From an uncultured Ruminococcus sp. (GTDB lineage Bacteria > Bacillota > Clostridia > Oscillospirales > Ruminococcaceae), in NCBI GenBank assembly GCA_902800795.1, contig CADCFQ010000009.1, positions 124,001 through 188,000 of the forward strand: a stretch of 64,000 bases of DNA, given 5' to 3'. How positions within the stretch are numbered: the first letter of the stretch is position 1; the number at the start of each line of letters is the position of its first letter. This document shows positions 25,588 through 56,765 of the stretch, piece by piece. The translations under genes were made by a program, and so were the position numbers. The notes under the pieces are model-generated. The model worked only from the letters and a program-made list of their open reading frames with translations, was not told the origin of the DNA and did no database searches.

Positions 25588-25618
25588 CGGTATGTCCGGA
25601 TCATGTCCGGGCATACCG
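25588..25618. terminator. Bidirectional terminator between convergent genes
   Basis: CGGTATG(T)CCGGA / TCCGG(G)CATACCG forms a strong hairpin followed by CTTTTTT on the plus strand. It lies between the permease gene and the converging zinc-ribbon gene. Confidence 0.75.
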
Positions 25619-25626
25619 CTTTTTTA

Positions 25627-26400
25627 TTATTCGGTTGTTTCTGCTTCGTCCCTGCTGTCAAGGAGCATACCGCTGTCCTCGGTCATACCGAAGATCTTCC
25701 AGCTGGGTCCCATTCTTCCCACATAGATGTAAAGCTTTGCTTCCTGGGTGTCCTTGGTGCCGCTGAAGGTGACATTTACCACCAGCTCATAGGCTTCGGA
25801 GATATTCGGCTTTCTGCCGTAGGCTTTCTTATACTCTTCAAGGTCGTAGTCGTCCTTTTCAAGCTTGGTCTCCTTGCCGAACTTTACCGAGATAGTGTAG
25901 CCCTCGCCGTACTGCTCGATGAAGCTTGAATAGAGTACCTTTTTCATAACGTCCTCTTTCGAGTAGCCGCCCTCTTTTCGCTGCTGCTCATATTCATCTT
26001 TCATATCCGAGGGGAAGCAGTCGATGAATTTGTCAAAATCGCTGTTCTGGATAGAAGCGAAATACTGCTTGACCACATCACGCTTATCGCTTTTGAAGAT
26101 AACGCCGCTTCGCCACAAAACCACGACAACCACAGCCACGAACACGACAGCTGTGATAACGAGGGTCTTGATGCCTGCGTTCTTATCGAAGTTGCGGCGC
26201 TGTTTTCTGGCTTCACGCCTTTCCTTCTCCCATTTTGCATAGACGGCCTTATCATCCTCCGAGCGGAAGCGCTCGGGCTTTGTTGCCTTTTTATATTTTA
26301 CTGCTGCTTTGGAGTTTTTCAGCTTGGGGTCACCGTAACCGCATTTGTCACAGTATTTTCCGCTGTACATCTCGCCGCAGGACTTACATACCTTTGCCAT
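25627..26400 (-). CDS. Zinc-ribbon membrane protein with NTF2-like external domain
   Basis: A 257-residue protein. It opens with a zinc ribbon (CKSCGEMYSGKYCDKCGYG), then a very basic segment, one helix (about 90-112, TLVITAVVFVAVVVVVLWRSGV) and an external domain beginning KRDVVKQYFASIQNSDFDKFIDCFPSDMKDEY. That pattern, a helix before a cone-shaped strand set ending MGPSWKIFGMTED, is typical of DUF4878/NTF2-like domains. The acidic end is DSRDEAETTE. Its promoter appears to borrow the edge of a repeat element (26457-26462). Function unknown. Confidence 0.75.
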   Translation of the reverse strand: MAKVCKSCGEMYSGKYCDKCGYGDPKLKNSKAAVKYKKATKPERFRSEDDKAVYAKWEKERREARKQRRNFDKNAGIKTLVITAVVFVAVVVVVLWRSGVIFKSDKRDVVKQYFASIQNSDFDKFIDCFPSDMKDEYEQQRKEGGYSKEDVMKKVLYSSFIEQYGEGYTISVKFGKETKLEKDDYDLEEYKKAYGRKPNISEAYELVVNVTFSGTKDTQEAKLYIYVGRMGPSWKIFGMTEDSGMLLDSRDEAETTE

Positions 26401-26433
26401 AGAATTTTCCTTTCCTGTTTCACATTATAATAA

Positions 26434-26462
26434 ATAATACAACTTTTCTCCCCCTTTGTCAA
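26434..26462 (-). promoter_or_regulatory. Promoter of the zinc-ribbon gene, -35 at repeat edge
   Basis: Minus-strand TTGACA (26457-26462), a 17-base spacer and TATTAT (26434-26439). The -35 box lies in the sequence TGTCAAGGCAGG, which is shared with the other type 1 repeat at 45810. Confidence 0.65.
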
Positions 26463-26726
26463 GGCAGGTGCTCGCCGCACGGCTTTGCCTCTGGCGGAAT
26501 ACGCAACAAAGCTGAAAAACACAAAAGAGTTATAATACGCAAAAAGCTATAATAATCCGCCAGAGGATCAAAAGTTTGGGTCGAGCCTTTTCAAAGGCTC
26601 GCAGGGATCCAAGGGGCGGCGCCCCTGGTCGCAGCCCGCAGGCTGCGAAACACCCCTTTGCCCGGAGGCGCTCGAAAGGGGTGAATTCAAAAACAGTCCA
26701 CCGGACTGTTTTTGAAGAGGGGAAGC
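26457..26726. repeat. Structured intergenic repeat copy A (type 1)
   Basis: This 270-base element matches 45810-46046 along its whole length. It opens TGTCAAGGCAGG and then the 17-bp motif GTGCTCGCCGCACGGCT (26468-26484). Next are a CTGGCGGA...TCCGCCAG inverted pair, GAGCCTTT/AAAGGCTC, AGGGGC/GCCCCT, TCGCAGCC/GGCTGCGA (loop CGCA) and a 14-bp perfect hairpin at 26686-26716. Relative to copy B it has about 30 extra bases from an imperfect internal duplication of AATACGCAA..AGCT. It lies between a zinc-ribbon gene and the htrA terminator. Confidence 0.85.
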
Positions 26727-26812
26727 ACGGCAGGAGCTTTCCTCAAGCCGCTTGCGGCTTGACGGCCGGTGCTGTCCGTCAAACCGTTTGTCCTGTACCT
26801 TTATAAAAAAGC
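26727..26812. other. Intergenic remainder with one hairpin
   Basis: Between the repeat and the protease terminator is a hairpin AAGCCG CTTG CGGCTT (near 26745-26760). No gene or promoter is seen. Confidence 0.4.
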
Positions 26813-26844
26813 AAGAGCCGGCCGATGATGATCGGTCAGCTCTT
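26813..26844 (-). terminator. Terminator of the HtrA-type protease gene
   Basis: Minus-strand reading gives AAGAGCTGACCGAT / ATCGGCCGGCTCTT with loop CATC, followed by GCTTTTTT. One U-G wobble and one mismatch interrupt the 14-position stem. Confidence 0.8.
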
Positions 26845-26897
26845 ACCGGAAGTATAGAATATGAAAAATTGAAACTGCTTTTTAAACCGAACAACGA

Positions 26898-28364
26898 TCA
26901 AAATCCGGGGAAGCCGTAGAAGTCGTTGAAGCCGTCGAGACCGTCGCCGCCGTAATACTGCTCATATCCCGGCTGCTGCTGTTGCTGCTGCTGGTCATCT
27001 GTCTCGGTCTCCTGGGTGGTGATTTCGCCGGTAGCCTCTCCAAGGACAACGTCAACGCTTATCTTCTTGCCGTTTCTGTATATGGTGAGGTTTACTGTGT
27101 CGCCCACATTATATTTGTTCTTTACCTCGTTGAGCTCGCTGATAGATGTTATGAACTCATCCTCGATACCGATAACAATATCGTTCTCCTGGATACCTGC
27201 TGCCTCGGCACCGCTGCCCTCTGTTACCTTCTTGACAAGGAAGCCCTGGGGGATGCCGTAGTATGAAGCATAAGCGCTGGAAACATCAGTTCCCGAAATT
27301 CCAAGGCTTGGTCTGCCGGTTACATAGCCGTTTTCCATAAGGTCTTTGACGATAGGAAGAGCGTCATCTATCGGGATAGCAAAGCACAGGCTGTCTGCAA
27401 CGGAAGCGTCAACTCTAGCCGAAGCTATGCCGATCACCTGGCCGTAAGCGTTTATCAGCGGTCCGCCGGAGTTTCCGCCGTTGATAGCCGCATCTGTCTG
27501 GATGTAGTTTATAGTCCTGTCCTCGATGGTGAGCGTCCTGTCTGTTGCCGAGATGATACCTGCGGTAACAGAGTTTGCAAGGGACATACTTACAGGGTTT
27601 CCTATAACTATCGCAGCTTCACCGATCTGAAGGTCAGAAGATGTTCCGAACTCAGCGGCGGTAAGGCCCTCGGCCTTTATCTTGAGCACCGCAATGTCTG
27701 TCTGGTTGTCGGCGCCCACAAGCTCAGCCGTATAGGTAAGGTTGTCCTCGCTTTCATCCGAGCTCTTGGTGTCGCCGGAATCAGAGGTCTCGCTTGTGTT
27801 GGAGTAGTTGCTGGGGAGAACGACATTTATCTCCTGGGCACCCTCAACAACGTGAGCGTTCGTAAGGATGTAGCCGTCCTCGCTCATAATTATGCCCGAG
27901 CCGGTAGCCATACCGTTCTGGAGCACACAGGAGATGCCGACAACGGAGGGCGAGACTTTCTCGACTATTTCAGGGATAGTGAGAGCATCCTTCGGTGTGG
28001 AGAGCTGCTGGATGGTCGGCAGGTTGTCACGGTCTACCGTGCTCTTTGTCTTGGCTGATGTCAGCTGGGACTTTTTGCTGCTGGACTCCGAATCGGAGCT
28101 CTGGATAACATTGTTTCCTGTGATAAGGGTGTAGCCCACAATAGATGTGGTGCCGATAGCGGCAACGCAGAGCACTGCGATGATGCCGGTGAGTATCTTT
28201 TTGCTTGCAGGGGTCTTTTTCTTTGGCTTAAAGGTATATTCGCCGGAAGCTCCTCTTGAATATGCGTCGAACTGTGCCTGGCCGTAAAGCTGCTGGGGCG
28301 CCTGCTCTCTTGCGTCATATTCTGTGCTGTAGCGGTTGTTCGGATCATTTCTGTAATCGTTCAT
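26898..28364 (-). CDS. htrA: Membrane-anchored HtrA/DegP-type serine protease with PDZ domain
   Basis: A 488-residue protein quality-control protease. A cytoplasmic tail (1-55) is followed by one membrane helix (about 56-82), a Ser/Lys linker, a trypsin-like domain and a PDZ domain (about 365-450). The catalytic triad is H171 (LTNAHVV), D223 (NQTDIAVLK) and S299 (GGNSGGPL). A Ser/Asp/Glu-rich insertion (about 187-208) sits between the His and Asp strands. The C-terminus is unusual: a Gln run, then a Gly/Tyr/Phe-rich end (YYGGDGLDGFNDFYGFPGF). I start at MNDYRNDPNN because ATCAGGAGG precedes it; the open frame extends 25 codons upstream. Confidence 0.93.
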   Translation of the reverse strand: MNDYRNDPNNRYSTEYDAREQAPQQLYGQAQFDAYSRGASGEYTFKPKKKTPASKKILTGIIAVLCVAAIGTTSIVGYTLITGNNVIQSSDSESSSKKSQLTSAKTKSTVDRDNLPTIQQLSTPKDALTIPEIVEKVSPSVVGISCVLQNGMATGSGIIMSEDGYILTNAHVVEGAQEINVVLPSNYSNTSETSDSGDTKSSDESEDNLTYTAELVGADNQTDIAVLKIKAEGLTAAEFGTSSDLQIGEAAIVIGNPVSMSLANSVTAGIISATDRTLTIEDRTINYIQTDAAINGGNSGGPLINAYGQVIGIASARVDASVADSLCFAIPIDDALPIVKDLMENGYVTGRPSLGISGTDVSSAYASYYGIPQGFLVKKVTEGSGAEAAGIQENDIVIGIEDEFITSISELNEVKNKYNVGDTVNLTIYRNGKKISVDVVLGEATGEITTQETETDDQQQQQQQPGYEQYYGGDGLDGFNDFYGFPGF

Positions 28365-28754
28365 GTTAATGCCTCCTGATATGTAATGGAGCGGGATATC
28401 GTCCCGTCCTGTCTGACTATAACTTATTATATACCGCAATGTGATAATTAAATGATAGTTTTAACAATTTTTTATGTTTTTTAGCGTCTGCGAATGTGAA
28501 AAACACGTTGATAAAGTGAAAATGTCTGCAAAGGTGACTCTCCGAAAATGAGCCAGCGAAAATGAAGCTGTATTTTTATAATAAATGCAAAAAAATTGTT
28601 AATTGGTGTTTTAGACGGCGAATATTTGAAACTATGAAAATGTATTATTGTTCCGGGTCTATGATGTGCACAAAAAGTTTTGTTATTCTTTGTTAAAATT
28701 GCCGAATTTGGATAATTCAATAAAAAAAGGACTTTCGTAAACGATTAACCTTGC
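28365..28754. other. AT-rich divergent intergenic region
   Basis: These 390 bases separate htrA from the promoter of the large ABC operon. A TATAAT lies near 28430 in minus-strand reading and is likely part of the htrA promoter, but its -35 box is unclear. I see no gene, terminator or recognised RNA here. Confidence 0.4.
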
Positions 28755-28783
28755 TTGACAATTATAACTGGTTTTGGTATAAT
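28755..28783 (+). promoter_or_regulatory. Promoter of the large carbohydrate ABC operon
   Basis: A perfect TTGACA (28755-28760), a 17-base spacer and a perfect TATAAT (28778-28783). It leaves a leader of about 200 bases before the first gene, which may carry regulation; no known riboswitch was recognised in it. Confidence 0.88.
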
Positions 28784-28991
28784 TATGATTAGCATAATGA
28801 CCCCTTATGTGCATTTTCTGTGTATTATTGTGACTATTGAATATCGCAGGAACGCCCTTTTTGAGCATATTGTACATAACACCAGGGCTTGAAAAGATTT
28901 TCAGAGGGTCTTATGAAATTTGTCTGTTTTGCACAAGCGGCCGCCCAAAACAGGGGGCGGAGAGCTTGGTTTGTCCTGAGAGGAAACGTTT

Positions 28992-29669
28992 ATGAGCGTG
29001 ATACTGTCTACGAGAGGTGTTTGCCGGGACTTCAAGATCGGCGACGGGAGCATAGTCTCCGCACTTAAAAACATCAATATTGAGATAGAACAGGGCAAGC
29101 TCACGGTCCTGAGAGGCAGATCCGGAAGCGGAAAGACCACTCTGATAAACATCCTTGGAGCGCTGGATAAGCCGACCAAAGGAAATGTGTTTTTCGGGGA
29201 GCGTGATATCACCAGGCTTTCAGAGAGAGCAAGGGACGATATCAGGCGCTATGAAATGGCTTTCGTTTTCCAGTCGGTAGCTCTGATGTCGGGGATGACG
29301 GCCTATGAGAACGTTGAGTTCGGGCTCAGGCTTGCAAAGTTCCCGTATGACCAGAGGGCAAAGCGGACAAAGGAGTGTCTGAGAAACGTAGGGCTTGAAA
29401 AGAGAATGGTCCACCGTCCGGGCGAGATGTCCGGAGGTGAGCAGCAGAGAGTTGCTATCGCCAGGGCCATAGCGCACAAGCCGAAGATCGTTTTTGCTGA
29501 CGAGCCTACGGCGGAGCTTGATACAAATACTGCTCTGCACATCGTGAAGCTTTTTAAAGAGCTTGTAGCGAACGAAGGTATGACTATCGTTATGACGACG
29601 CATGACCCGAGCATGATGGATGTTGCCGACAGGGTCTATACGCTGGAGGACGGTGAGGTCGTTGAGTGA
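28992..29669 (+). CDS. ABC ATPase, LolD/MacB/FtsE type (first of pair)
   Basis: A 225-residue ATPase. Walker A is GRSGSGKTT (42-50), the Q-loop VFQS, the signature MSGGEQQRV (146-154), Walker B IVFADEPTAELD and the H-loop TTHD. The compact length and the motif forms are those of LolD/MacB/FtsE ATPases, not of the MalK/MsmX family that normally drives sugar importers, which carry a C-terminal TOBE domain. No FtsX-type permease is encoded nearby. It heads an operon with MalF/MalG-type permeases, so it and its partner may energise them. GAGG precedes the ATG. Confidence 0.92.
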   Translation: MSVILSTRGVCRDFKIGDGSIVSALKNINIEIEQGKLTVLRGRSGSGKTTLINILGALDKPTKGNVFFGERDITRLSERARDDIRRYEMAFVFQSVALMSGMTAYENVEFGLRLAKFPYDQRAKRTKECLRNVGLEKRMVHRPGEMSGGEQQRVAIARAIAHKPKIVFADEPTAELDTNTALHIVKLFKELVANEGMTIVMTTHDPSMMDVADRVYTLEDGEVVE

Positions 29670-43593: not shown

Positions 43594-45744
43594 TCACTGC
43601 TTGACGCCCTTCATAGTCAGCGAGATGCGGCTTTTCTGAAGGTCAACAGACAGGACCTTCACCTTGACTATCTGACCCACCTTAACAACATCCAGCGGGT
43701 GCTTGACAAACTTGTCGGCCAGCTGGGAGATGTGGACCAGGCCGTCCTCGTGGACGCCGATGTCTACAAAGGCGCCGAAGTCGATAACGTTTCTCACTGT
43801 TCCCACAAGCTCCATGCCCTCTTTGAGATCCTTGAGCTCCATAACGTCCGCACTTCTCATAAGCGGGGGCGGAAGCTCGTCACGGGGGTCACGGCCGGGC
43901 TTTACAAGCTCATTTATAATATCTTCAAGAGTCGGGATCCCGGCGCCTGTCTTTTCGGACAGCGCTTTGAGCCCGACTTTTTTTGCCTTTACAGGCAGAT
44001 CGGTCAGGCTGCCCATATTGGTCAGCGAGTAGCCGCAGCTCTCGAGAAGCCCCTTTGCGGCATCGTAGCTCTCGGGGTGAACACCGGTATTGTCAAGAGG
44101 GTTCTTTCCGTCACGAACACGCAGAAAGCCTGCGCACTGCTCATAGGCTTTGGGTCCCAGCTTTGCGACCTTCAGAAGCTGTTTTCTATCAGTGAAGGAG
44201 CCGTTCTCCTCACGGTAGGCAACGATGTTTTTAGCAACGCTCTTGCTGATGCCTGCGATATAGGACAGCAGTGAATAGGAAGCCGTATTAAGATCGACAC
44301 CGACGGAGTTTACGCAGTCCTCCACAACGCCTGACAGCGCCTCGTCCATTCTGGCTTTGGGCATATCGTGCTGATACTGACCCACACCGATAGCCTTTGG
44401 GTCTATCTTTACAAGCTCAGCCAGAGGATCCTGCAAACGTCTTGCGATGGAGACAGCCGACCTTAGCGAAACATCATACTCGGGGAACTCCTCGGCCGCA
44501 AGCTTTGAAGCGGAGTAGACCGAAGCGCCTGCCTCGGAGACCACCATATAGGAAACACCGCCGCCTATCTTCTTGATAAGCGCTGCAGCAAACTGCTCGG
44601 TCTCTCTGGACGCAGTTCCGTTTCCGATAGCGATAGCCGTTACACCGTGTCTCTTTATCATAGTGCTTATGATCTGCTCGGCTTTCTCTGTGTTCTTCCT
44701 CGGGGGCGTTATATAGATTATCGCTGTGTCCAGCACCTTTCCGGTGTCATCCACCACAGCGCATTTGCAGCCGTGGGCATATCCGGGGTCAAGCCCCAGT
44801 GTCACCTTGCCTTTTATAGGCGGCTGCATTAGCAGCTGACGCAGGTTTGAAGAGAACACCTTTATAGCGCCCTCCTGGGCTTTCAGGCTGAGGTCGTTTC
44901 TTATCTCACGCTCAAGAGAAGGGTAGATAAGTCTCTTCCAGCTGTCAAGAGCTGCCGCTTCAACAAGCTCAGAGCAGCGGTTCTTCCCCTTTACAAAGCG
45001 CTTTGTCAGAGCTCTCTCTGCGGCGCCCTCGGGAAGTGTGACGCTGACTTTAAGAAAGCCCTCCTTCTCTCCTCTGTCGATAGCCAGTATCCTGTGGCCT
45101 GCCACCTTTGAGACGCTCTCCGAGAACTCATAATAGTTCTCATAAACGCTTTTGGCGTTCTCATCGGCCGCCGCCGAAACAAGGTGTCCGATGTCGGAAA
45201 ACATCTGCCTGAGATACTTTCTCATCTCTGCGCTGTCCGAGATATCCTCGGCTATTATGTCCATAGCACCTGCTATGCAGGCGTCCTTGTCTGCAAGCTC
45301 CTTTTCTTCGTCTTTGTAGTTCTCTGCCTCGTCATCGATATCGGTGCCGTCGGCCTGCTCCATTATAAGCTCGGCAAGGGGCTCCAGACCTTTTTCTCTG
45401 GCAACGGAAGCCCTTGTCTTTCTCTTCTGCTTATAGGGCAGATAAATGTCTTCCACCTCAACGAGAGTGACTGCTTTTTCGATAGCGGCCATAAGCTCGT
45501 CGGTCATCTTCTCCTGTGCGGTGATAGAGGCTATTATTTCCTCCTTGCGTTTTTCCAGGTTCCTGAGATATGTCAGCCTGTCCGAGAGGTCTCTGAGGGC
45601 TGTGTCATCCAAAGAGCCTGTCAGCTCCTTGCGGTATCTGGCGATAAAGGGTATGGTCATACCCTCGTCGATAAGCGCCACCGCATTATCGACCTGCTCC
45701 TGTTTCAAGCCCAGTTCCCGGGCGATCATCTTGTTTATTTCCAT
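43594..45744 (-). CDS. tex: Tex-family S1 RNA-binding protein
   Basis: A 716-residue nucleic-acid-binding protein related to eukaryotic Spt6. Features in order: Tex N-terminal helices (LGLKQEQVDNAVALIDEGMTIPFIARYRKE), the YqgF-like domain with LGLDPGYAHGCKCAVVD, the helix-hairpin-helix segment (VDLNTASYSLLSYIAGISKSVAKNIVAYREENG) and the C-terminal S1 domain (GMELVGTVRNVIDFGAFVDIGVHEDGLVHISQLADKF). The length is typical. It has a promoter at 45787-45815 whose -35 box is shared with a repeat element. Confidence 0.96.
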   Translation of the reverse strand: MEINKMIARELGLKQEQVDNAVALIDEGMTIPFIARYRKELTGSLDDTALRDLSDRLTYLRNLEKRKEEIIASITAQEKMTDELMAAIEKAVTLVEVEDIYLPYKQKRKTRASVAREKGLEPLAELIMEQADGTDIDDEAENYKDEEKELADKDACIAGAMDIIAEDISDSAEMRKYLRQMFSDIGHLVSAAADENAKSVYENYYEFSESVSKVAGHRILAIDRGEKEGFLKVSVTLPEGAAERALTKRFVKGKNRCSELVEAAALDSWKRLIYPSLEREIRNDLSLKAQEGAIKVFSSNLRQLLMQPPIKGKVTLGLDPGYAHGCKCAVVDDTGKVLDTAIIYITPPRKNTEKAEQIISTMIKRHGVTAIAIGNGTASRETEQFAAALIKKIGGGVSYMVVSEAGASVYSASKLAAEEFPEYDVSLRSAVSIARRLQDPLAELVKIDPKAIGVGQYQHDMPKARMDEALSGVVEDCVNSVGVDLNTASYSLLSYIAGISKSVAKNIVAYREENGSFTDRKQLLKVAKLGPKAYEQCAGFLRVRDGKNPLDNTGVHPESYDAAKGLLESCGYSLTNMGSLTDLPVKAKKVGLKALSEKTGAGIPTLEDIINELVKPGRDPRDELPPPLMRSADVMELKDLKEGMELVGTVRNVIDFGAFVDIGVHEDGLVHISQLADKFVKHPLDVVKVGQIVKVKVLSVDLQKSRISLTMKGVKQ

Positions 45745-45786
45745 AAGCTTTCTCCTTTTCGGGATAGTATATTCACTCCCTTATAT

Positions 45787-45815
45787 ATTTTACCAAACTC
45801 CCACCCCAATGTCAA
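45787..45815 (-). promoter_or_regulatory. Promoter of tex, -35 at repeat edge
   Basis: Minus-strand TTGACA (45810-45815), a 17-base spacer and TAAAAT (45787-45792). The -35 is part of TGTCAAGGCAGG, the shared start of the type 1 repeat. Confidence 0.7.
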
Positions 45816-46046
45816 GGCAGGCGTGGTGCTCGCCGCACGGCTTTGCCTCTGGCGTAATACACAGCAAAGCTGTAATAATCCGCCAGGGGATCAAAAGTTT
45901 GGGTCGAGCCTTTTCAAAGGCTCGCAGGGTCCAGGGGCAGCGCCCCTCGGTCGCCCTCCGCAGAGGGCGAAATCCCCTGCATACGGAGGCGCTCGAAAGG
46001 GGTGAATTCAAAAACAGTCCGGTGGACTGTTTTTGAAGAGGGGAAG
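45810..46046. repeat. Structured intergenic repeat copy B (type 1)
   Basis: This is the second copy of the element at 26457-26726. It keeps the same order of hairpins but with changed bases that preserve pairing: TCGCCCTC/GAGGGCGA replaces TCGCAGCC/GGCTGCGA around the same CGCA loop. The 14-bp hairpin at 46007-46037 has loop GGT where copy A has ACC. It is followed at 46061-46091 by an extra copy of the first 31 bases after the 17-bp start (GTGCTCGCC...GGCGTA). Confidence 0.85.
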
Positions 46047-46060
46047 CCCTGCAAGAGGGG

Positions 46061-46091
46061 GTGCTCGCCGCACGGCTTTGCCTCTGGCGTA
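46061..46091 (+). repeat. Partial repeat copy C
   Basis: This 31-base stretch is identical to 45826-45856 and in the same orientation, so copy B is flanked by direct repeats. Confidence 0.8.
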
Positions 46092-46141
46092 GATTATAAC
46101 TTAGCTGCTTTCCTATAAGCTTTTATCGTATAGTATTGCTT

Positions 46142-46205
46142 TCGTGCGAAAAGTGGTGTCGGCTGACGCCGACTCGTGCGAAAAGTGGTGTCGGCTGACG
46201 CCGAC
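46142..46205 (+). repeat. Perfect tandem duplication of a 32-bp unit
   Basis: Two identical head-to-tail 32-bp units (46142-46173 and 46174-46205), beginning TCGTGCGAAAAGTGG. Each ends with the hairpin GTCGGC TGAC GCCGAC. No spacer separates them. No gene overlaps. Confidence 0.85.
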
Positions 46206-46382
46206 GATTTTGAATGAGGGCTTTCCCAGCGTAAGCGCTAGCTTATGCGTGCTCCCATACCCCTTCGGATGGACACCCCCAACCCCTTTGGGGCGCCCCC
46301 TGAGTCCTGCGAGTAAATTACACAAATAATCACAACTTCTTTTGTGAAGCCCTACAAAACGCAGGAAAGCCCTTTGGTCTGA
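46206..46382. other. Noncoding stretch upstream of the symporter gene
   Basis: This stretch contains CCCC/GGGG hairpins near 46275-46300 (AACCCCTTTGGGG) and no credible frame. It continues the noncoding island that begins at 45816. Confidence 0.4.
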
Positions 46383-46411
46383 TTGCAAAACCCTGTCAAA
46401 CGTGCTATAAT
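46383..46411 (+). promoter_or_regulatory. Promoter of the SDF symporter gene
   Basis: TTGCAA (46383-46388), a 17-base spacer and TATAAT (46406-46411), 32 bases before the ATG. Confidence 0.82.
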
Positions 46412-46443
46412 AATAAAAATATCACAAGCTGTGGGAGGTCGCT

Positions 46444-48102
46444 ATGCTTGGCAAGAAGATAATCAGAATAAACAAGACCTTTGCTTCAAACGGACCCGTG
46501 GTCATAAACGAAGCAAAGGCATTTATACTTGAAACATTGAAGGGTCTGAAAATAGGCCGCAAGCTGGTCATGAAGACCGAGCTTTTGTGCGAGGAAGCGA
46601 TAATAGATCTGATGAGGTTCTCTGCCGAGGGGGCTTCTCTGAATGTTAGGATAAGGCGCTTTTTCGGAGACCTCAGCGTTGTCCTTTCTATGGACGGCGA
46701 GGAGTATGACCCCTTTGCCGAGGCGGCAGGCGATGAGGAGGACGATATCTCCGAGGAGACTATCCGTGCTATCCTGTTCAAGTCCTGCGGCGAGTCCTTC
46801 AAATATGCACACAAGAACCGCCGCAACACCGTCAGGATCCTGACAGGCCAGGCGGAGCAGAAAACCCTGAGACTCACCTTCGGGGCGCTGGCTCTTGGGC
46901 TGGCGTTCGGGTTTCTTGCAAAGTTTTTCCTGCCGGAGCGCTTTGTCGAGTTCACAGGCAGCAATGTTCTGGAGCCTGCAAAGACGATGTTTATGAACGC
47001 ACTGAGGATAATCATAGCACCTGTGGTGTTCTTTTCGATAGTCAGCTGTATATCTCAGTTCAACAGTATTGCGGAGCTGGGGCGGCTGGGATTGAAGATA
47101 GTAGGGATGTATCTTTTGACCACCGTGATAGCGGTATTGCTGGGTATAGGTATGTTTTCAATGATCAAGCCCGGAGAATGGGGCTTTGCGGCCTCGACCC
47201 TTGTGGAGAGCCGGGACGTTTCGGACCTGGCAGATGAAAAGCTGTCTATCAGGGAAACGGTGGAGAACATAGTCCCGTCAAATTTCTTAGAGCCGTTTCT
47301 TAAATCTGATACGATGCAGATAATCTTCCTTGCGGTGCTGTGCGGTCTGGCTGTGGGGATGACGGGCGAGTATTCGCAGAAGCTCAGAGGTCTCTTTGAA
47401 GCCTGCAATTCGCTGTTTCTTACGGTAACGACGCTGATATCAAAATTCATCCCCGTTGCGGTGTTCTGCTCGGTGTCCCTGCTGATAGTCCGTATGAGCG
47501 GCAGAGATATACTCCAGGTGCTGGGCGGTGTGGGTGTCCAGACGGGCACTATATTTATAATGATGTGTGTTTACGGGCTGCTGATACTTATCATAGCAAG
47601 GATAAATCCGCTGAAATTCTATAAAAAGGCAAGAGAGGGTATGATAACCAGCTTCACCCTTTCGTCAAGCTCTGCGGCTATGCCGACAAATCTCAGGGTG
47701 TGTACCGAAAAGCTGGGTATCTCTCCGAAGGTAGCCAATTTCTCCATTCCTCTCGGAGCCACGCTTAATATGGACGGAGCCTGCATATATTTCTGTGTTA
47801 TAGGGCTCTTCCTCGCAAGGGCTTATGCGGTCACTGTTCCTATGTCCACTCTGGTAACTATGGGTATAACGGTAGTGCTGCTGTCTCTTGGGGCGCCCGG
47901 AGTTCCGGGAGCAGCCTTTGTTTGTCTGGGAATAGTTCTGAACACCCTGAATGTCCCTATCGAGGCTATAGGCCTGATAATTGCGGTCAACCCGATAATG
48001 GATATGTTTGATACCATGTCCAACTGCACGGGAGATATGGCGGCGGCGCTGATAGTGTCCAAAAAAGAAAAGCTCCTGGATGAAAAGGTTTATAACAGTT
48101 AA
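46444..48102 (+). CDS. SDF-type dicarboxylate/amino-acid symporter with extra N-terminal domain
   Basis: A 552-residue cation-coupled symporter (DAACS/SDF family, GltP-like). The transport core (about 145-540) has the hairpin motif SFTLSSSSAAMPTNLR, the NMDGACIYF motif and the late NPIMDMFDTMSN. Ordinary SDF proteins have about 400-450 residues. The first 130 here form an extra cytoplasmic domain with TELLCEEAIIDLMRFSAEGASLNVRIRRFFGDLSVVLSMDGEEYDPF. It faintly resembles a GHKL ATPase (SpoIIAB/RsbW-like) but has Asp where the metal-binding Asn is expected. It may be a degenerate sensor domain. The gene has its own promoter and terminator. Confidence 0.88.
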   Translation: MLGKKIIRINKTFASNGPVVINEAKAFILETLKGLKIGRKLVMKTELLCEEAIIDLMRFSAEGASLNVRIRRFFGDLSVVLSMDGEEYDPFAEAAGDEEDDISEETIRAILFKSCGESFKYAHKNRRNTVRILTGQAEQKTLRLTFGALALGLAFGFLAKFFLPERFVEFTGSNVLEPAKTMFMNALRIIIAPVVFFSIVSCISQFNSIAELGRLGLKIVGMYLLTTVIAVLLGIGMFSMIKPGEWGFAASTLVESRDVSDLADEKLSIRETVENIVPSNFLEPFLKSDTMQIIFLAVLCGLAVGMTGEYSQKLRGLFEACNSLFLTVTTLISKFIPVAVFCSVSLLIVRMSGRDILQVLGGVGVQTGTIFIMMCVYGLLILIIARINPLKFYKKAREGMITSFTLSSSSAAMPTNLRVCTEKLGISPKVANFSIPLGATLNMDGACIYFCVIGLFLARAYAVTVPMSTLVTMGITVVLLSLGAPGVPGAAFVCLGIVLNTLNVPIEAIGLIIAVNPIMDMFDTMSNCTGDMAAALIVSKKEKLLDEKVYNS

Positions 48103-48132
48103 AAAAGGCTGCCGGACGAACAGCCTTAGGCG

Positions 48133-48172
48133 AAAAAGGTACCTCGCCCCGAAGGGGGTGAGGTACCTTTTT
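48133..48172. terminator. Strong bidirectional terminator
   Basis: An 18-bp stem beginning AAAAAGGTACCTC, with a GAAG loop. Its symmetric A-run and T-run serve both the symporter gene and the converging HPr gene. Confidence 0.9.
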
Positions 48173-48210
48173 CTGAAAAACAAGCTGCGGCGCAGTGCTC
48201 TTTTTGTTCG

Positions 48211-56470: not shown

Positions 56471-56669
56471 GTGCTCGCCGCACGGCTAATGCCCCCACCC
56501 CGCCCGGGAGCGTGCAGGCTAACAAAGAGCAGCCGCCCTCCCCGGAGGGGAGGGGTTAGCTTTGTGGGGGCTTTTCAATTGCACACTGCGTGAACCTTGG
56601 TAAATAGTGAAATGCCCGTTACATAGCAGAGTCGTTAAATTCGCCAGGGATATAGCCGTGCGGCGAGCA
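56471..56669. repeat. Intergenic repeat copy D (type 2), bounded by inverted repeats
   Basis: The 17-bp sequence GTGCTCGCCGCACGGCT (56471-56487) and its exact reverse complement (56653-56669) bound a 199-base element with no gene. It contains CCCTCCCC GGAGGGGAGGG and matches copy E near 19434 in its first 30 or so bases and in the C/G-rich core. Terminal inverted repeats of this kind are typical of non-autonomous mobile elements; no clear target duplication was seen. Confidence 0.75.
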
Positions 56670-56765
56670 CCCAGGGGCACACGCCTGGCTGAGTGAATAA
56701 TTATCTGAAAACAGGGCATTATCATAATGAACGATTTAAAACCAACCTGAAAGGAGACAGCATAA

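Follow-up and report, generated by a model that had tools for sequence, protein, structure and literature searches.

Copies A (26468-26762) and B (45826-46060) of the 64-kb window, i.e. the whole stretch of 64,000 nucleotides analysed here, are members of a large intergenic repeat family of gut and rumen bacteria. The family has many intergenic copies, some of which are present in one species and absent from its sister. The hairpin loops and the pairing of the stems are conserved, the stem sequence is not, and hairpin cassettes have been exchanged between copies. We consider that A and B probably belong to a palindromic DNA repeat of the Oscillospirales that is non-autonomous, interspersed and mosaic and has hairpins recognised by their loops.

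The repeat had 29 matches in the 2.5-Mb host genome, which to judge by its relatives is apparently from Ruminococcus or a genus close to it, and a covariance model (R1, built on hairpins H2 to H6) placed at least 22 copies there; the copies were analysed as extracted stretches of sequence. Model R1 found the repeat in 39 of the 148 genomes of the host's taxonomic family and in 72 of the 295 genomes sampled from the order (Oscillospirales). The distribution was patchy, with many copies in some genera, and the carriers included Butyricicoccus pullicaecorum, Pseudoflavonifractor capillosus, Pseudoruminococcus massiliensis and Ruminococcus sp. FC2018. Phage and plasmid collections gave no match to the repeat, and only five viral contigs carried the H3 pattern described below. 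An Rfam search with copy A returned nothing relevant at the gathering threshold and nothing beyond chance up to E = 10. No published description of the repeat was found in a targeted literature search, with most subscription journals outside its coverage.

The family core spans approximately 165 nt and consists of six hairpins in a fixed order: H1 (TTCA loop), H2 (triloop), H3 (CGCA), H4, which is followed by a TGAATT linker, H5 (GGT), and H6 (GCAAGAG). The order of the hairpins and the linkers (GCGAAAT and GGGGTGAATT) were retained across genera, and the loops were constant across genomes and genera while the stem sequences varied. In the host genome, the core is fused to further repeat modules, namely the end module GTGCTCGCCGCACGG, a long 5′ stem, and a hairpin H7. 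The end module stood 5′ of most host copies, and only locus C4 and its orthologue had a reverse end module nearby on the 3′ side. We also observed an unrelated hairpin (e.g. TTCCGCGC-AAA-GCGCGGAA) in the H5 position of some copies of genome G143 (L161 and L166); here, the entire hairpin is replaced and its position is kept.

Copy A lies on the forward strand and begins with the end module GTGCTCGCCGCACGG (26468-26482), a short repeat module that occurs in both orientations. The long 5′ stem (26488-26566) is formed by CCTCTGGCGG (26488-26497) and CCGCCAGAGG (26557-26566), and this module was observed only in the host species and its sister. It is followed by H1 (26582-26601, loop TTCA), H2 (26612-26626, triloop), H3 (26629-26648, loop CGCA, AGCC/GGCT allele), H4 (26651-26683, CACCCC paired with GGGGTG, then the conserved TGAATT), H5 (26686-26716), a degenerate H6 (26719-26744), and H7 (TCAAGCCGCTTGCGGCTTGA, 26743-26762). 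Copy B, on the same strand, comprises the end module GTGCTCGCCGCACGG (45826-45840), a 5′ stem of CCTCTGGCG and CGCCAGGGG (45846-45889), H1 (45905-45924), H2 (45933-45947), H3 (45951-45970, CCTC/GAGG allele), H4 (45974-46002), H5 (46007-46037, loop GGT), and H6 (46040-46060), the right arm of which is shortened by a further end module at 46061-46075. An earlier note on this DNA had described two copies with identically ordered hairpins. Both copies are located where it placed them, and the identical order was confirmed by the family-wide model. The limits of A had to be amended, as A extends beyond 26726 to the degenerate H6 and H7, and TGTCAA at 26457-26462 falls outside it. This hexamer is the TTGACA −35 box, on the reverse strand, of the native promoter of the gene at 25627-26400 (reverse strand; promoter scan TTGACA-17-TATTAT), and it abuts the left edge of A. 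TTGACA was ruled out as a part of copy A because the sister species has the box at its empty site too. Near the left edge of B, another TTGACA −35 box (45810-45815, reverse strand) belongs to the gene at 43594-45744 (reverse strand).

The H3 stem reads TCGCAGCC-CGCA-GGCTGCGA in A and TCGCCCTC-CGCA-GAGGGCGA in B. As the earlier note had pointed out, three of its eight pairs are changed, all of them are Watson-Crick, and the CGCA loop is common to both copies. Folded as RNA and compared with shuffled sequence, A and B gave z-scores of −6.2 and −5.3, respectively, and the reverse strand of A gave −7.8. The check proposed in the note, i.e. gathering the copies, building a covariance model, and testing for covariation, was strongly positive. 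Among 19 diverse copies, 16 of 40 pairs were altered on both sides, and covariation was above 500 of 500 shuffles on every measure and above every slid control. H3 was also tested independently in public genomes, using a DNA pattern with the outer stem and the loop fixed and three positions per arm free, with no pairing required of the free positions. The pattern yielded 135 sites with more than 20 arm versions, and 128 of them were complementary at all three free positions, compared to 11.9 expected in shuffles. The distinct stems numbered 28 for H3, 42 for H5, and 28 for H6. Since covariation was found, the statement that this is not a passive repeat holds to the extent that different genera share the loops and the pairing. 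The note had left the choice between a folded RNA and a structured DNA substrate; the latter is better supported, with neither proven. We must also note that such covariation can arise from template switching even if the stems are not under selection (PMC8794818).

The difference between A and B in H3 is best explained by the exchange of a cassette between copies and not by three independent compensations. In the host genome, H3 occurs in two alleles only (CCTC arms and AGCC arms), H5 also in two, and H1 in three. All four allele combinations were found among the host copies for H1/H3, for H1/H5, and for H3/H5. Moreover, at one orthologous site in the host and the sister species G025, the same H3 change is swapped as a block together with H5 and H6, and the adjoining H1 and H2 are identical between the two species. 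Two shuffled H3 alleles and a block swap at an orthologous site therefore speak for cassette exchange. The A/B difference in H3 does not testify to stepwise compensation, and the note's reading of compensatory changes in the two stems needed correction in this respect.

The pairs themselves bear on the choice between DNA and RNA. At the free positions of the 135 H3 sites, 397 of 405 pairs were Watson-Crick, with 4 G-U and 1 A-C. Counted within copies, H3, H5 and H6 together had 1,397 Watson-Crick pairs out of 1,464, with 24 G-U and 7 A-C. The tRNAs from the same loci had 18 G-U pairs out of 323 and a single A-C (G-U:A-C of 18:1), which places G-U at 1-1.6% in the repeat stems versus 5.6% in the tRNAs. 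The counts based on anchors only, taken over all collected loci for H1, H3 and H6 and including chance sites, gave 25 G-U versus 20 A-C and, in consequence, no strong strand preference; H5 was omitted from them because its anchor is palindromic. The G-U excess over A-C within copies was small (24:7) and came mostly from H6. It would fit the folding of one strand and leaves the RNA reading open. In A, the H5 loop is inverted (ACC for GGT) and the rest of the palindrome is identical. Template switching in DNA leaves such inversions as its footprint (PMC8794818). DNA-level processes are thus indicated, since G-U is nearly absent and the H5 loop of A is inverted, and these two features fit DNA-level palindromes better than an RNA folded from one strand.

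The sister species G025 shares 94-95% protein identity with the host and has no copy A. The window segments 25618-26465 and 26806-29000 align adjacently there, and the stretch 26466-26805 is absent. Copy A and two other sites differ in presence between the host and G025, three sites are common to both, and a further relative, G026, carries no copies. The differences between host and sister likely reflect gain rather than loss. Three empty sites showed no target-site duplication, with the ends blurred by composite inserts; at two of these sites, the sister holds short unrelated DNA (18 and 100 bp). Site B was uninformative as an empty site, as the sister lacks 2.4 kb there, a symporter gene included. 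The segment missing at the orthologous place in G025 corresponds to window 45765-48199, contains the sodium:dicarboxylate symporter gene (46444-48102), and has the repeat at one edge.

The copies are intergenic and enriched in convergent gaps (odds ratio 2.7-2.9, p ≈ 0.004, with simple open frames as gene calls). The orientation bias of copies in tandem gaps was not significant (21:12 or 21:18). Close pairs of copies were arranged tail-to-tail in 18 cases, in the same direction in three, and never head-to-head. In genome G115, tail-to-tail pairs approximately 180-370 bp apart, with a TTGTCAAGAAA-like motif at the 5′ ends, were observed at L101, L104, L114 and L120; in that genus, it may be such a pair that moves as a unit. 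A and B each adjoin the −35 box of the gene on their left side and lie upstream of the promoters of oppositely running genes; neither is in a convergent gap. Their position beside the −35 boxes would be expected if insertions survive where the promoter is spared. The scans found no promoter pattern inside the core of A and no terminator in the core of A or B. A comparison of Y1_Tnp presence with copy presence linked no transposase or recombinase to the repeat. A Y1 transposase was rejected as the driver, as the presence of Y1_Tnp does not track that of the repeat. PF01797 had no match in the copy-carrying genomes G003, G006, G011, G017, G025, G033 and G035, of which several are incomplete assemblies and G003, G017 and G033 are 98-100% complete.

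According to the DNA repeat reading that we prefer, the copies would spread as DNA, and the hairpins would act as DNA hairpins, either in a single strand or as cruciforms, recognised mainly via their loops by a putative enzyme supplied in trans. Pairing in the stems would stay perfect since the two arms are overwritten jointly, through gene conversion from one copy to another and through template switching or hairpin inversion, with a further contribution from selection for pairing. A side effect may be that strand-symmetric hairpins are best tolerated in the gaps of convergent gene pairs, where they may halt transcription arriving from either direction. A more far-reaching version, in which an order-wide mobile element uses six loop-addressed single-strand DNA hairpins, with stems free as long as they pair, cassette exchange, and a putative enzyme that is not of the Y1/RAYT type, is in our opinion rather speculative.

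The conserved loops could equally serve an RNA. In that case, the repeat would be a structured RNA family, such as a small RNA or an untranslated-region element, selected for folding of one strand. The strong covariation over the helices, the folding z-scores of −5 to −8, the small plus-strand excess of G-U over A-C within copies, and the loops conserved across genera all suit such a family. However, G-U pairs are scarcer than in the tRNAs of the same loci by a factor of 3 to 6, the orientation relative to flanking genes is not significantly biased, the core of A contains neither a promoter nor a terminator pattern, and Rfam offers no relative even when E is raised to 10. An RNA gene would also not usually have some 20 mosaic copies, several of them present in only one of two sister species. 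We regard this explanation as the main rival of the DNA reading, but as unlikely.

It is also conceivable that mutation alone, by template switching and gene conversion, makes the covariation and that the hairpins are functionless. Template switching has been shown to generate and maintain hairpins and to produce inverted loops (PMC8794818), and both the inverted H5 loop in A and the cassettes swapped at one locus agree with it. The loops, however, are conserved across genomes while the stems vary, which counts against pure mutation because the loops should then drift at least as fast as the stems; the hairpin order and the linkers are likewise kept across genera. Neutral palindromes seem to us quite doubtful for these reasons. 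The missing G-U pairs would be explained as well if the hairpins were bidirectional terminators or insulators kept between genes and selected to fold in the transcripts of both strands. BIMEs are bidirectional terminators (PMC2965389), H5 has A-tract/T-tract symmetry, and convergent gaps are enriched in copies. Nevertheless, the scan found no terminator in the core of A or B, the two copies lie upstream of oppositely directed promoters and outside convergent gaps, and the same gap does without copy A in the sister species. Such a role is very improbable.

In its build, the DNA repeat resembles known interspersed elements. The BOX elements of Streptococcus pneumoniae are, in the sections of PMC3049150 on which this comparison draws, also modular, interspersed and intergenic, with strong secondary structure; they are inserted into one another, and some copies are common to strains and others are not. 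The same sections assign BOX terminal inverted repeats and target-site duplications, neither of which was seen for the repeat core. BOX is streptococcal, and covariation with constant loops and free stems is not described for it in those sections. REP/BIME/REPIN sequences with RAYT are likewise many-copy intergenic palindromes that form inverted doublets and mosaics (PMC3733652, PMC6006769). REP units, however, are 20-40 bp long, carry GTAG or GTGG at the stem base, and are linked to a Y1 transposase (PMC3733652, PMC6006769), whereas our repeat has six ordered hairpins and occurs in copy-rich genomes that have no Y1 transposase match. The inverted doublets were found (18 tail-to-tail pairs), but inspection of the family consensus revealed no GTAG/GTGG tag at the stem base, with GTGG only across the H5 loop. 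MITEs share with the repeat their short, non-autonomous, highly base-paired nature and their presence or absence between relatives; such polymorphism at orthologous sites, a mark of both MITEs and BOX, was observed. Unlike a MITE, the repeat core has no terminal inverted repeats and no visible target duplication, and almost no copy in the host genome has the end module on both sides. In integron attC sites, which act as folded single-strand DNA, stem complementarity is conserved and the stem sequence varies. The repeat differs from attC in that no gene cassettes and no array were seen and in that the loops are the conserved parts. Thus, it resembles BOX or BIMEs in build and lacks the defining marks of REP, i.e. 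the tag and the Y1 transposase.

Covariation is usually taken as proof of a functional RNA; in this family it is very strong, and both the chemistry of the pairs and the mosaic history indicate DNA. The family is therefore a test case for telling DNA covariation from RNA covariation, and it probably gives rise to false RNA predictions in gut bacteria. Should the hairpins be a recombination substrate, a new mobilising system would operate throughout a major order of bacteria from gut and rumen.

Three other features of the window were recorded. An intergenic element of 200 bp (56471-56670), bounded by the inverted ends GTGCTCGCCGCACGG/CCGTGCGGCGAGCAC, looks like a MITE, and its end module also occurs in A and B. 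The segment 63534-63665 matched the ribosomal protein L10 leader (RF00557), with a score just above the gathering threshold. At 46142-46205, a 32-bp unit (TCGTGCGAAAAGTGGTGTCGGCTGACGCCGAC) is present in two exact tandem copies, each with a small palindrome.
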